DNA from: an uncultured Erysipelotrichaceae bacterium
GTDB taxonomy: Bacteria > Bacillota_I > Bacilli_A > Erysipelotrichales > Erysipelotrichaceae
Reading direction: 5' to 3'
Length of the DNA: 32,978 nucleotides
NCBI GenBank assembly: GCA_949744505.1
Contig: CATJXY010000023.1
Span: 1 to 32,978 of the forward strand
The notes under the pieces are model-generated. The model was given only the letters and a program-made list of their open reading frames with translations, was not told the origin of the DNA and did not search any database. A program made the translations under genes and the position numbers. Shown piece after piece: positions 22,481 to 32,978 of the stretch. Every line of letters starts with the position of its first letter. Within the stretch, counting starts at the first letter, position 1.

Positions 22481-22508
22481 TTGCCTTTAAAAAAGTCTGT
22501 GATATAAT
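22481..22508 (+). promoter_or_regulatory. promoter of the pyrimidine operon
   Basis: TTGCCT at 22481-22486 is followed after 16 bases by a perfect TATAAT at 22503-22508. TG plus one base precedes the -10, forming an extended -10. Transcription would begin near 22515, just before the attenuator. Confidence 0.75.
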
Positions 22509-22514
22509 AGTTGT

Positions 22515-22605
22515 GGCTTTAAGTTAGTGCAGAGACGCTAAGAAGGAAAATCGAACTTTTTAATAGTACCAACACCTTCAAAGTATCTCTTTGAAGGTTT
22601 TTATT
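22515..22605 (+). promoter_or_regulatory. PyrR-type transcription attenuator of the pyr operon
   Basis: AGTG-CAGAGA-CGCT at 22526-22539 matches the PyrR binding-loop consensus ARUC-CNGNGA-GGYU. The hexaloop fits exactly, and the closing C-G pair is replaced by G-C, a compensatory change. Outer TT/AA pairs extend the stem (22524-22541). A terminator follows: ACCTTCAAAG at 22574-22583 and CTTTGAAGGT at 22589-22598, then T5. GAAGG at 22542-22546, just after the anti-antiterminator stem, can pair with CCTTC at 22575-22579, giving a possible though short antiterminator. With UMP or UTP present, PyrR would stabilise the first hairpin and so allow termination. pyrR itself is not in the window. Confidence 0.7.
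22574..22603 (+). terminator. terminator hairpin of the pyr attenuator
   Basis: A ten-base perfect stem (22574-22583 with 22589-22598), a five-base loop TATCT and a T tract. It sits upstream of pyrB within the same transcript, which identifies it as an attenuator rather than the end of the rluB unit alone. Confidence 0.85.
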
Positions 22606-22625
22606 ATGTTGAAGGAGGGCAAAGT

Positions 22626-28800: not shown

Positions 28801-29045
28801 CAAGAGTAAAGAAGAAACTTTCAGAAGGAAGTGAAGAGATTTTAGAATCGATTCGAAAAGGGCATGTTACTTACATTATCAATACATTATCTGTAAAAGA
28901 TGAGGCAAACAGTCGAGATGGATATTGGATTCGTCGTTGTGCTGTTGAGAATAATGTTACTGTATTTACTTCATTGGATACTGTAAATGTTTTATTGAAT
29001 GTTTTAGAAGAAATTACAGTGGGTGTTTCAGTAATTGATGCATAA
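25866..29045 (+). CDS. carB: carbamoyl-phosphate synthase large subunit
   Basis: The 1059-residue protein makes carbamoyl phosphate from bicarbonate, ammonia and two ATP. Two duplicated ATP-grasp halves are visible. The first starts with [19 protein letters not shown] and has [12 protein letters not shown]; the second has [18 protein letters not shown] and [12 protein letters not shown]. An oligomerisation region lies between (about 400-550). The C-terminal MGS-type allosteric domain (about 935-1059) has FDL-like [16 protein letters not shown], so UMP or ornithine type control is possible. Length is normal. It is the last gene of the pyrimidine unit. I see no strong terminator after it; the aro promoter follows within 25 bases. 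Confidence 0.96.
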
Positions 29046-29069
29046 AGTTTCGTTTGCATAAAACAATTC

Positions 29070-29099
29070 TTGCTTTTGAGTGTTAAGGAGTAGTATAAT
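29070..29099 (+). promoter_or_regulatory. promoter of the shikimate (aro) operon
   Basis: TTGCTT at 29070-29075 is followed after 18 bases by a perfect TATAAT at 29094-29099. Transcription would begin near 29106, directly at the leader peptide's ribosome binding site. Confidence 0.65.
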
Positions 29100-29118
29100 G
29101 AATGCATGGTGATAAATT

Positions 29119-29160
29119 ATGCATATTCATGAAATTTATTCTTATTACTACTTTAGATAG
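29119..29160 (+). CDS. aromatic leader peptide of the aro attenuator
   Basis: The 13-codon frame encodes MHIHEIYSYYYFR, with GGTGA at 29108-29112 six bases before the ATG. Four Tyr codons (TAT, TAT, TAC, TAC) and one Phe codon (TTT) fall in the last seven sense codons. The stop TAG ends at 29160, and the first stem of the leader starts at 29161. The frame is in the right place, has the right codons and carries its own ribosome binding site. It is likely a sensor of charged tRNA-Tyr and tRNA-Phe rather than a functional protein, as in the pheL and trpL leaders of enterobacteria. This function is inferred from structure and context. Confidence 0.75.
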   Translation: MHIHEIYSYYYFR

Positions 29161-29234
29161 CCCCGATAAGAACCAACATTGCTTGGATTTTTAATCGGGG
29201 TTTTAATTAGAGCATCCAAACCGATGCTTTTTTA
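29161..29234 (+). promoter_or_regulatory. trp-like transcription attenuator of the aro operon
   Basis: Three overlapping hairpins can be drawn. 1:2 is CCCCGAT at 29161-29167 with ATCGGGG at 29194-29200, plus an inner CCAA/TTGG helix. 2:3 pairs 29183-29195 with 29206-29219, about 13 pairs with one bulged C at 29213. 3:4 is AGCATC at 29211-29216 with GATGCT at 29223-29228, followed by a T run, the terminator. 2:3 excludes both others. A ribosome held at the last Tyr or Phe codon reaches into segment 1, freeing segment 2 to pair with 3 and allowing read-through. Fast translation leaves 1:2 and 3:4, hence termination. Pairings were checked by eye; energies were not computed. Confidence 0.7.
29210..29234 (+). 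terminator. terminator (3:4) of the aro attenuator
   Basis: AGCATC and GATGCT form a six-pair stem with a six-base loop, extended by a G-T pair, and followed by five to six T. It ends just before the aroB ribosome binding site. Confidence 0.75.
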
Positions 29235-29251
29235 TTTGAGAGGTGAAGAAA

Positions 29252-30250
29252 ATGGAAATCGTTGTTGATTTAAAAGAAAGAAGCTATCCTATAATTTTAG
29301 AAAGAGGGGCTTTAAAACAATGTTTTAAATGGATCAAGTCAGATCGTAAAGTTATGATTTTATCTGATGAAGGAGTTCCAAAAGAATTTCAAGAAGAACT
29401 TTTGAAGCAATTTCCAAATAGCTTTTTAAAAGTTGTAAAACAGGGAGAATCTTCAAAATCGGTGGATACATGGGCAGAATGTCAGAAAGAATTACTAAAG
29501 CATCGTTTCTCACGAAAAGACTGTTTAATTGCTTTAGGAGGCGGAGTGATCGGTGATTTGGGTGGATTTGTTGCCTCAACTTATATGAGAGGAATTGACT
29601 TCATCAATATTCCAACAACGACTTTATCGCAAATCGATAGTAGTATCGGTGGAAAAACCGCAATTAATGTGGAAGGTGTCAAAAATTGCGTTGGGGCCTT
29701 TTATCAGCCTAAAATAGTAATTATTGATCCGAATGTACTCAAAACATTAAATTATCGTCATTATGTAAACGGATTAATTGAAGCTCTTAAAGCAGGGTTG
29801 ATTTATGATTCGAGTTTATTTGAACTGTTTGAAAATGGAGATATTGAAAAAGAGATAGAAATGATTTTATATAAAGCTCTTTTAGTAAAAAAAGATGTAG
29901 TGGAAAAAGATGAAAGAGAAATGGGACTTCGGAAAATTTTAAATTTCGGTCATACGATTGGCCATGGAATTGAAAGTTATTATCATCTTCATGATATTTA
30001 TCATGGTGAAGCTGTCGCACTTGGGATGTTACCATTTATTTTAGATGAAGATTTGAAAAAGAGAACACTTGCCATTTACAATAAACTAAAGATTCAATCC
30101 GTTGTGGATTATGATGCTGAAGCGGTTTATCAATTTATGTGTAATGATAAAAAGGCAAGTGGAGATAAAATCACAACAATCCAAGTAAAAGAGTTGGGAA
30201 AAGCAATGTTGGTAGAAATGCCTCTTGAAGATTTAAGAAAGGTGTTGTAA
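29252..30250 (+). CDS. aroB: 3-dehydroquinate synthase
   Basis: The protein of about 332 residues converts DAHP to 3-dehydroquinate, the second shikimate step, using NAD and a divalent metal. Signatures are ALGGGVIGDLGGFVASTYMRG, IPTTTLSQIDSSIGGKTAINV and FGHTIGHGIES, with metal-binding His and Glu residues in these blocks. I start it at the ATG at 29252, with GAGAGGTG at 29238-29245; an in-frame GTG at 29243 overlaps that site. It is a little shorter than the E. coli enzyme. It is the first structural gene after the aromatic attenuator and runs into aroC after four bases. Confidence 0.95.
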   Translation: MEIVVDLKERSYPIILERGALKQCFKWIKSDRKVMILSDEGVPKEFQEELLKQFPNSFLKVVKQGESSKSVDTWAECQKELLKHRFSRKDCLIALGGGVIGDLGGFVASTYMRGIDFINIPTTTLSQIDSSIGGKTAINVEGVKNCVGAFYQPKIVIIDPNVLKTLNYRHYVNGLIEALKAGLIYDSSLFELFENGDIEKEIEMILYKALLVKKDVVEKDEREMGLRKILNFGHTIGHGIESYYHLHDIYHGEAVALGMLPFILDEDLKKRTLAIYNKLKIQSVVDYDAEAVYQFMCNDKKASGDKITTIQVKELGKAMLVEMPLEDLRKVL

Positions 30251-30254
30251 TACG

Positions 30255-31367
30255 ATGTCAAATACAATAGGAAAAAATATACGCATCAGTTTATTTGGAG
30301 AAAGTCATGGTGAAGCGATTGGAGCCATGATGGATGGTTTACCGAGTGGAATTAAAATTGATATGAATTTTTTGAATTCGATGATGGATCGAAGAAAAGC
30401 AAAAGGAAATATTTCAACTCAACGTAAAGAAGAAGATCAAGTAAAATTGATAAGTGGTGTTTTTGAGGGAAAGACAACCGGAACACCTTTGACGATTTTA
30501 ATTGAAAATAAAAATGTTCAAAGCAAGGACTACGATTCAATTAAGGACTTTATGCGACCATCTCATGCGGATTATACAGCTCATGAAAAGTATTATGGTT
30601 ATCAAGATTATCGTGGTGGAGGGCATTTCTCAGGGCGATTGACAGCACCACTTGTTGCAGCCGGAGCAATATGTATGCAGATATTACATGACCAAGATAT
30701 CGAAATCGGTTCTCATATTTTATCTTGCCAGGGAATTTGTGACGATTCATTCAGTACGGATGAAAAAGTTTTAAAGAAGCAAATTGAAAACATGAATCAA
30801 GTTTATTTTGCTTGCTTAAATGATCAAGCTAAAAATCAGATTCTTGAAAAGATCGAAGAAGCACGTAAAAATCAAGACAGTGTGGGTGGAATTATTGAAA
30901 GTGCTATCTTGAATGTTCCTGTCGGAATTGGAGATCCTACATTTGATTCTTTAGAAAGTGTTCTTTCTCATGCACTTTTCTCAATTGGTGCAATAAAAGG
31001 AATTGAGTTTGGATTGGGATTTGATTTTGCAAACCATACCGGATCAGAAGTCAATGATGCAATTCGATATGAAGAGGGAAGAGTTATCACTTTGAGTAAC
31101 AATAATGGAGGAATTAATGGTGGAATCAGTAATGGAATGCCAATTATTCTTCGCTGTGCCATCAAGCCAACTCCCTCTATTTTCCAAATGCAGCAAACAA
31201 TTAACATTCAAACGAAAAAGAATGTTGAATACAGCATTGTCGGAAGACATGATCCGGCAATCTTTCATCGTGCTCGTGTTGTCATTGACAGTATGATTGC
31301 GATTACAATTTTGGATTGCTTGATTGAGAGAAAAGGAATTTTATCCTTTATGGGAGAGAAAAAATGA
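30255..31367 (+). CDS. aroC: chorismate synthase
   Basis: The 370-residue enzyme removes phosphate from EPSP to form chorismate and needs reduced FMN. Motifs are SLFGESHGEAIGAMMDGLP at the N-terminus, MRPSHADYTAHEKYY, DYRGGGHFSGRLTAPLVAAGAI and VGRHDPAIFHRARVV. The RGGGHFSGR version replaces the RGGGRSSAR of E. coli and is seen in other Firmicutes, as far as I recall. Length is normal. The SD is AAAGGTG at the end of aroB. It overlaps the next gene by four bases (ATGA). Confidence 0.95.
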   Translation: MSNTIGKNIRISLFGESHGEAIGAMMDGLPSGIKIDMNFLNSMMDRRKAKGNISTQRKEEDQVKLISGVFEGKTTGTPLTILIENKNVQSKDYDSIKDFMRPSHADYTAHEKYYGYQDYRGGGHFSGRLTAPLVAAGAICMQILHDQDIEIGSHILSCQGICDDSFSTDEKVLKKQIENMNQVYFACLNDQAKNQILEKIEEARKNQDSVGGIIESAILNVPVGIGDPTFDSLESVLSHALFSIGAIKGIEFGLGFDFANHTGSEVNDAIRYEEGRVITLSNNNGGINGGISNGMPIILRCAIKPTPSIFQMQQTINIQTKKNVEYSIVGRHDPAIFHRARVVIDSMIAITILDCLIERKGILSFMGEKK

Positions 31368-32614
31368 GAAAAGGATTAATAGGAGAAAAACTCGGACATA
31401 GTTATTCAAAAATTATCCATGAAAGAATTGCCGATTACGAATATGAACTGATTAGTTTAAACCAAGAAGAGTTTAAGAAGTTTATGACAGAAAAAAACTT
31501 TGATGCGATCAATGTAACGATTCCATATAAAGAACAGGTCATTCCCTATTTAAATAAGCTAGATGAATCGGCTCAAGGAGTAAGAGCGGTGAATACGATC
31601 GTAAATAAAGAGGGGAATTTAATTGGATATAATACAGATACGTTTGGTTTTGAGTATACATTAAAAGTACATAAGATTGATGTCGAAGGAAAAAAAGTAG
31701 TTGTGCTTGGAAATGGTGGAGCATCTAAAGCTATTTGTGATGTCTTAAAAAGAAATAATGTAGGTCAAATCATCAAAGTAAAGAAAAATCCATCGCCTGA
31801 AACAATATTTTATGAACAATGTTATCAAGAGCATGCGGATGCATCGATTATCATTAATACAAGTCCGGTTGGCATGTATCCGAATAATGAAACTTGTCCA
31901 ATTGATTTAGAACCGTTTACAAATTTAGAAGCGATAGTCGATATTATTTATAACCCACTTAAAACTAAGTTGTTGATTGAGGCTGAAAAAAGAGGGATTC
32001 TTGCAGTGAATGGCTTAGAAATGCTTGTGGCACAGGCAAAGAAAGCAGTTGAATATTTTTGTGGCAGAGAACTTGATGATTCTTTGATTGAAGAGGTGAA
32101 TCAGGAATTAATTCAACAAAAAAGAAATATTGTATTAATCGGTATGCCAAGTTGTGGGAAGACAACGATTGGTAAGATCTTATCAGAAAAATTAGATTAT
32201 GATTTTGCAGATATGGATGAAGAAATCCTCAAAGAAATCAAAATGCCTATCAGCGAGTATTTCCGTCTTTATGGTGAGCAAAAGTTTCGTGAAATTGAAA
32301 ATCGTATCGCAATTGAGTTATCGAAAAGAAACCGTCTCATTATTTCTACCGGAGGTGGAGTAATAAAAAAGGAAGAGAATATAGATGCATTGCGACAAAA
32401 TGGTCTTATTTTCTTTTTAAACAGAGATTTAGATAAGCTTATTTCAGATTCATCCAGACCACTCAGTTCTTCGAAAGAAGCAGTGAAAAAATTGTATGAA
32501 GAAAGAATTCTGTTATATATCGAATATAGTGATTATAAAATTGACAATAATGGATTAATTGAGGATACTATCAATGAAATATACCATTATTTAAGTGAAA
32601 AAAAGGGAGAATAA
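31364..32614 (+). CDS. aroE-aroK: fused shikimate dehydrogenase-shikimate kinase
   Basis: The 416-residue protein joins two enzymes. Residues 1 to about 248 are shikimate dehydrogenase: GEKLGHSYSKIIH, NVTIPYKEQV with the catalytic Lys, VRAVNTIVNKEG, GYNTDTFGF, VVLGNGGASKAI for NADP, INTSPVGMYPN and NGLEMLVAQA. Residues about 253-416 are shikimate kinase: Walker A GMPSCGKT at about 260-267, ADMDEEI, EQKFREIE and STGGGVI. The linker is very short (EEVNQELIQQKR). Both motif sets look complete, so the protein should turn dehydroshikimate into shikimate 3-phosphate. It overlaps aroC and is followed by aroF after four bases. Confidence 0.93.
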   Translation: MRKGLIGEKLGHSYSKIIHERIADYEYELISLNQEEFKKFMTEKNFDAINVTIPYKEQVIPYLNKLDESAQGVRAVNTIVNKEGNLIGYNTDTFGFEYTLKVHKIDVEGKKVVVLGNGGASKAICDVLKRNNVGQIIKVKKNPSPETIFYEQCYQEHADASIIINTSPVGMYPNNETCPIDLEPFTNLEAIVDIIYNPLKTKLLIEAEKRGILAVNGLEMLVAQAKKAVEYFCGRELDDSLIEEVNQELIQQKRNIVLIGMPSCGKTTIGKILSEKLDYDFADMDEEILKEIKMPISEYFRLYGEQKFREIENRIAIELSKRNRLIISTGGGVIKKEENIDALRQNGLIFFLNRDLDKLISDSSRPLSSSKEAVKKLYEERILLYIEYSDYKIDNNGLIEDTINEIYHYLSEKKGE

Positions 32615-32618
32615 TACC

Positions 32619-32978
32619 ATGATTATCACATTGAAAAAAGAAGCATCAGAAAAAGAAATTCAATCATTAATGAATGAATTGGAGCAATTGGGACTAAAAA
32701 TCACGATGATTACCGGAGCCAGTTATAATGTTTTCGGACTTGTCGGGGATACAACAAAAGTGGATGAAAGGAAAATCAAAGCCAATAGTTTTGTAGAAAA
32801 TGTAACAAGAATTGCGGCTCCTTATAAAAAAGCGAGTCGAATGTTCCATCCTGAAGATTCAATCGTAGATGTATCGGGGATCAAAATAGGAGGAAAAGAA
32901 AAGATCGTTGTGATCGGAGGACCTTGTGCGGTAGAAGGAAAAGAACAAATCAAAAGAATCGCAAAAGAAGTAAAAGAA
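32619..32978 (+). CDS. aroF: DAHP synthase, N-terminal part (cut by window end)
   Basis: The visible 120 codons start at an ATG with AAGGGAGA upstream. The first 70 residues look like the ferredoxin-like domain of the AroF/AroG Gram-positive type (MIITLKKEASEKEIQSLMNELEQLG, ITGASYNVFGLVGDTTKVD). The start of the catalytic barrel follows, with FHPEDSIVDVSG, KIGGKEKIVVIGGPCAVEGKEQI. GPCAVEG matches the GPCSVE-type motif of the class. The enzyme would start the pathway from PEP and erythrose 4-phosphate; the ferredoxin-like domain usually carries feedback control. The frame is open to the window edge; nothing can be said of the missing C-terminus. Confidence 0.85.
   Translation, partial: MIITLKKEASEKEIQSLMNELEQLGLKITMITGASYNVFGLVGDTTKVDERKIKANSFVENVTRIAAPYKKASRMFHPEDSIVDVSGIKIGGKEKIVVIGGPCAVEGKEQIKRIAKEVKE

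Follow-up and report, generated by a model that had tools for sequence, protein, structure and literature searches.

A family-wide Tyr/Phe leader peptide before aroB as the probable attenuator of the aro operon in an uncultured Erysipelotrichaceae bacterium

The aro operon of an uncultured Erysipelotrichaceae bacterium is preceded by what is probably a real, family-wide attenuator, in which a short peptide rich in Tyr and Phe would be translated just ahead of a transcription terminator. We analysed a stretch of 32,978 nucleotides from this organism (the window, to which all coordinates refer; all features with a stated extent lie on its forward strand), and we put at about 80% the probability that positions 29100-29234 attenuate transcription of the aro operon in a ribosome-dependent way, according to how much charged tRNA-Tyr and tRNA-Phe is available. 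A leader-peptide attenuator is the best explanation because such leaders occur family-wide, and because Tyr/Phe leaders also stand before aroF, in one genome, and before a TrpX-like gene, in four. The core of the original prediction, a Tyr/Phe leader-peptide attenuator in front of the aro operon, is borne out by a frame, codons and a terminator that appear conserved in the family; the exact RNA switch that it proposed is probably not the right one.

The region combines a short frame with a Shine-Dalgarno (SD) sequence before the first gene, a run of Tyr/Phe codons, and a terminator in between. The frame (29119-29160), recognised from the sequence and from 50 homologous leaders, runs for 13 codons from the ATG at 29119 to a TAG ending at 29160 and encodes MHIHEIYSYYYFR, with Tyr codons at 29137, 29143, 29146 and 29149 and a Phe codon at 29152. 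The ribosome binding site that had been predicted along with it is present as GGTGAT (29108-29113), though this is only a partial SD match. A likely promoter (29070-29099) consists of a TTGCTT-like -35 element and a TATAAT -10 element (29094-29099), and went unlisted in our consensus scan on account of the weak -35; the 5' end of the leader RNA would lie near 29106, only about 13 nt ahead of the ATG. The terminator ends 18 nt before the start of aroB, the first structural gene (29252-30250, 3-dehydroquinate synthase; TIGR01357, 324 bits for a cut-off of 305). It is followed by aroC (30255-31367, chorismate synthase; TIGR00033), by a fused aroE-aroK gene (31364-32614, shikimate dehydrogenase-shikimate kinase) and by the start of a gene for an aroF-type DAHP synthase (32595-32978), whose translation resembles that of the aroF gene at locus L242 discussed below and which continues past the end of the window.

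By itself, the Tyr/Phe content of the window frame is unremarkable for AT-rich DNA, at least five aromatic codons being found in 6.5% of shuffles of this single frame (P = 0.065); it is decisive only by comparison. A search for AroB in 273 genomes of the window's family gave matches in 148, and in 50 of 84 family aroB upstream regions a short frame closes with a run of Tyr/Phe codons; this set is selected in that its members were chosen among frames with an aromatic run. A fixed rule (an ATG frame with at least four Tyr/Phe codons among its last six, 60-165 nt before aroB) picks out 41 of the 84 regions, where 50 dinucleotide shuffles give 0.44 on average and never more than 3, and the reverse strand gives 0, so that the expected conservation of the aromatic codons was indeed observed. 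Of the 628 codons of the 50 leaders, 257 code for Tyr or Phe and none for Trp; the two other reading frames have 68 and 92 Tyr/Phe codons. TAT/TAC and TTT/TTC vary synonymously, and the last aromatic codon stands exactly two codons ahead of the stop in 40 of the 50 leaders. Arg is the final residue of 27 of the 50 peptides and Glu that of 8, across both RNA architectures described below and with different codons used; such a residue may influence the dwell time of the ribosome at the stop codon.

The distribution of these leaders is narrow. In the other families of the class, only one aroB upstream region in 34 has a comparable frame (G298, MKSYILSKQTTEKFYFYYYITPLY), and none passed our filter in 17 genomes of a family of the same order (f2) in which aroF precedes aroB. 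Six distant AroB relatives examined in named genome contigs have no comparable leader, the AroB of a Subdoligranulum plasmid (52% identity) is without one, and a search of viral contigs gave no match. In the window's own genome, a search for four Tyr/Phe codons, one further codon and a stop yielded 58 matches; among the 30 whose loci were examined, the window leader alone combined a short frame with an SD and a terminator behind it.

The RNA of 29100-29240 folds much more stably than its dinucleotide shuffles (z -5.06, 0/200), and the predicted hairpins 1:2 and 3:4 were recovered. The hairpin P1 (29161-29200; 1:2 in the original numbering of segments) pairs 29161-29167 with 29194-29200 (-16.5 kcal/mol) and begins, as had been claimed, directly after the stop. 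It encloses a small hairpin P2 (29173-29176 with 29183-29186), a candidate pause hairpin with a U-tract at 29188-29192. The intrinsic terminator (3:4, 29209-29233) pairs 29209-29216 with 29223-29230 (-8.3 kcal/mol), has its T run at 29228-29233, and is the single terminator-like site within 28900-29400, where 0.1 would be expected. The third helix, 2:3 (29183-29219; UUGGAU with AUCCAA plus flanks, about 12 pairs, -6.4), can form in the window RNA and excludes 1:2, as the prediction of mutually exclusive hairpins had it; but it is neither conserved nor better than in shuffles, and we do not accept it as a conserved element. Nor did the upstream stretch pair with the terminator any better than its shuffled versions do (z -0.93).

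Comparison across the family shows two architectures, which we call class A and class B. In class A, RNAalifold overlooks P1 because the MAFFT alignment does not bring its arms into register, and we adopted instead an alignment-free swap test, in which the duplex energy of an arm with its own partner is set against that with partners from other species. Class B leaders (in genera g32, g36, g18, g20 and g24 among others) have, after the stop, GGGC (segment 1), AGATAATTGCCC (segment 2) followed by ATTTT, GGCATTATCTA (segment 3) and the terminator CCATATGGATAATGCCATATGG, the inner part of which (segment 4) can pair with segment 3. Here helices 1:2, 2:3 and 3:4 and the terminator all coevolve (p = 2e-4, n = 23; p ≤ 0.0016 with one sequence per genus). 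Class A leaders, including that of the window, have P1 right after the stop, enclosing P2 and a conserved U-tract (they keep a TGG and the T-tract after it), and then a terminator AGCATC...GATGCT. P1 coevolves (-13.0 kcal/mol with its own partner, -6.5 with swapped ones, p = 2e-4; also with one sequence per genus), as do the terminator arms (p = 2e-4), but in 24 homologues the 2:3 helix does not (-6.4 own, -6.7 swapped, p = 0.85; 0.94 and 0.88 in repeats). The covariation foreseen in three stems was thus seen in 1:2 and 3:4 and failed in 2:3. Pairings of the P1 3' arm, or of the 5' side of P1/P2, with the terminator gave no signal in class A, and a scan of 1117 window pairs brought out only P1, the terminator and a weaker pairing of the SD with the P1 3' arm. 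The class B covariance model (R1) has no match in the window's genome, and the window leader is on these sequence comparisons of class A. Taken together, these comparisons show conservation, accompanied by compensatory changes, of the frame with its Tyr/Phe codons, of P1 and of the terminator; a mutually exclusive antiterminator coevolves in the class B relatives, and in class A no conserved one was found.

How the ribosome would operate such an RNA decides between the possible wirings. The trp-type wiring of the original prediction has the ribosome mask segment 1 while it is stalled on the Tyr/Phe codons, which lets 2:3 form and prevents 3:4. The 2:3 helix does dominate once at least 10 nt past the stop are masked: P(2:3) is 0.78 in the folding model with about 10 nt covered, but only 0.01 with 4 nt. 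A ribosome usually shields some 15 nt downstream of the first base of its P site, and in either class segment 1 follows the stop codon directly. By this estimate, a ribosome waiting at the window's last Tyr or Phe codon would reach 29161-29164 at most, where 2:3 is at its low value, and one at the stop codon about 29170; segment 1 (29161-29176) would therefore be covered by a ribosome that has arrived at the stop codon and not by a stalled one. Set beside the lack of coevolution in 24 homologues (p 0.85-0.94), this leaves the trp-type wiring improbable. In class B, by contrast with that wiring, a coherent and sensible switch can be modelled: a stalled ribosome would allow 1:2 and 3:4 and hence read-through, and a ribosome at the stop would give 2:3 and the terminator, turning the operon off. 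The folding model has the class B terminator 5' arm bound at 0.62 in the stalled state versus 0.50 at the stop (p = 1.5e-4). The same calculation for class A goes in the opposite direction (0.33 stalled, 0.41-0.50 at the stop). For the window itself, the 5' arm before the 3' arm is made is bound at 0.83 in the stop state versus 0.20 when stalled, which in the model runs opposite to expectation, and equilibrium folding with ribosome footprints predicts the window terminator in every ribosome state (0.98-0.99). With class A folding in the opposite sense and the terminator present in all states, no antiterminator is demonstrated for class A; this, the 1117-pair scan and the weak SD of the window count against the attenuator reading, and the direction of the window's response would follow from the pathway and by analogy with class B.

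The class A antiterminator might instead be a long-range pairing, across P1, of the leader (the SD or the codons before the run) with the terminator loop and 3' arm, the position of the ribosome deciding whether the leader segment is free. In the window's subclass this pairing beats swapped partners (p = 0.0012, 11 species), and with one sequence per genus p is 0.006 for one choice of 7 genera, though 0.06 for the other; it reaches -15 kcal/mol in G024 and -13.6 kcal/mol in G070, and between G264 and G266 a synonymous CAA/CAG change matches terminators with GATGCT/GATGCC. In the other class A subclass, the SD coevolves with the stretch just after the U-tract, in the P1 3' arm (z -4.0 in the scan; p = 1.5e-4 over all 24 class A leaders, 0.03 per genus), but this pairing is absent in the window RNA (-1.7). 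Moreover, early stalling on the aromatic codons would put the ribosome over the leader segment, so that the switch would act in the wrong direction. Because many tests were made and the sequences are related, we regard both pairings as leads, not results, and consider the long-range antiterminator unlikely. Somewhat less likely still is that class A takes its switching strand from the leader itself, with the SD or the codons pairing with either the P1 3' arm or the terminator. If this were true, termination would be set by the position of the ribosome on the leader frame, or by its reloading, with no masking of a downstream segment, a wiring undescribed for leader-peptide attenuators. As an observation apart, complementarity between the SD and the stretch after the P2 U-tract covaries in several leaders (AGCGTGA with TTACGCT in G263; also, for example, L003, L006, G066 and G144) and could shut off re-initiation on the leader.

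The conserved aromatic-Arg/Glu-stop ending would also suit a nascent peptide that, like TnaC, arrests its ribosome in response to free Tyr or Phe. We find this very improbable: the peptides range from 9 to 22 residues, their N-terminal parts vary freely, Tyr and Phe interchange inside the run, and the class B scaffold is also used by His leaders. An ordinary terminator behind a chance frame, which the single-genome codon count would allow but the 41 of 84 regions contradict, or else a missed T-box or other riboswitch, is hardly credible; the Rfam search that had been suggested gave no match in the window, and T-boxes were readily found elsewhere in the same genome.

The attenuator reading charged tRNA would then work as follows. 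RNA polymerase would make the short leader and probably pause at the P2 hairpin with its U-tract, and the first ribosome would translate the 13-codon peptide. With plentiful Tyr- and Phe-tRNA, the ribosome would proceed to the stop codon and sit over the first 9-10 nt after it; segment 1 being covered, the terminator would form and transcription would end before aroB. If charged tRNA were short, the ribosome would wait on the aromatic codons, segment 1 would remain free, P1 would form and read-through would presumably follow.

Related leaders extend beyond aroB. Within the family, the R1 model has 49 matches (E ≤ 2e-5), and almost every one lies immediately upstream of aroB. One strong match (L242, genome G020) is a Tyr/Phe leader, MIKLDKKGFYYFYYR, that stands before aroF instead of aroB. 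Weaker matches in two genera are Tyr leaders (e.g. MKNINNLNQAQQWSYYYYFS) before a gene for a substrate-binding lipoprotein, which matches TrpX (NF041285) with an E of 3e-78 but, at 263 of 390 bits, below the cut-off. Four leaders of this TrpX-like group (L246, L250, L251 and L261) end in SANYYYFYYS, QWSYYYYFS, QQGSYYYYFS and QWSCYYYFS and are accompanied by terminators. The Tyr codons ahead of the TrpX-like gene suggest, from sequence, that Tyr or Phe, and not Trp, is the substrate brought in by this ABC transporter binding protein. Outside the family, the best R1 matches are His leaders (MKTNYNLLTQVHHHHKTGFDI, MKIQLQEQVHWHHHF) upstream of hisZ (L230, L231), in which the segment order, read by eye, is that of class B. 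The class B scaffold may thus be one attenuator frame with exchangeable sensor codons, Tyr/Phe or His.

The window's genome also contains 14 T-box matches (RF00230, L264-L277), mostly at tRNA synthetase genes and including tyrS (L265) and pheS (L276), and RF00230 has no match within the window. With T-boxes at tyrS and pheS and none at the aro leader, the aro operon is therefore an exception to the T-box rule in a genome that does use T-boxes. Other Rfam families were considered for the leader at gathering and permissive thresholds and none was credible, the best being RyhB with 19 bits for a cut-off of 55. Elsewhere in the window, the region upstream of pyrB (22500-22606) has the stretch CAGAGACGCT, which we take to resemble a PyrR-binding stretch, and after it the terminator hairpin CCTTCAAAG...CTTTGAAGG-TTTTT; it is a candidate pyr attenuator before pyrB-pyrC-carA-carB, and it had no Rfam match at the gathering score.

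These data indicate that, in one family of Bacillota, the synthesis of aromatic amino acids is controlled by peptide leaders that sense Tyr and Phe, and that two tRNA-sensing principles, leader and T-box (tyrS, pheS), may serve the same amino acids in one cell. Depending on the genus, leaders stand before aroB, aroF or the TrpX-like gene, and a scaffold with either Tyr/Phe or His codons makes evolution by sensor swap testable. The approximately 75 leaders, in two architectures, provide material on terminator control by a ribosome at the stop rather than at the critical codons.

The original prediction held that the leader may be undescribed. In a literature search that covered few subscription journals, we found no report of a Tyr/Phe leader before aroB in Firmicutes or in this family, but leaders with Phe or Phe/Tyr codons before aroF and attenuation in Firmicutes are published; the novelty is narrowed by AroR, by uORFC-13-1 and by the His leaders of Erysipelotrichales. 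The E. coli trp and pheA leaders resemble that of the window in that the leader codons match the product and a terminator precedes the first gene. In these E. coli leaders segment 1 overlaps the critical codons, whereas that of the window lies beyond the stop codon, and its 2:3 helix lacks conservation. The ilv-leu leader of Staphylococcus aureus, for which there is genetic evidence of peptide-leader attenuation (PMC5794164), is also a Firmicute leader, but with Leu/Ile codons and before branched-chain genes. His-leader attenuators are described in Erysipelotrichales, Peptostreptococcaceae and the Bacillus cereus group (PMC9413887), and hisS*/hisZ leaders in Bacillus (PMC2965389). Like the aro leaders, they are found in Firmicutes and have a short peptide with a codon run, followed by attenuator and terminator hairpins; those before hisZ (L230, L231) share the class B scaffold and differ by their His codons and his genes, and the window's class A leader, unlike them, is unmatched by the class B model. 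In Acholeplasma, uORFC-13-1 is a predicted uORF with a terminator upstream of aroF, known from 24 sequences of one genus and defined by at least one Phe codon only (PMC8632094); it shares with the window a uORF and terminator before a shikimate gene, and by its description is set apart in preceding aroF, not aroB. The AroR leader of the Corynebacterium glutamicum aroF operon has a Phe-Tyr-Phe motif, and stalling at Phe/Tyr raises transcription; it is reported to respond to Phe limitation and not to Tyr (Neshat et al. 2014, cited in PMC11802643). Compared by description, AroR belongs to an Actinobacterium and precedes aroF rather than aroB, and it has in common with the window a Phe/Tyr leader peptide before a gene of the shikimate pathway.
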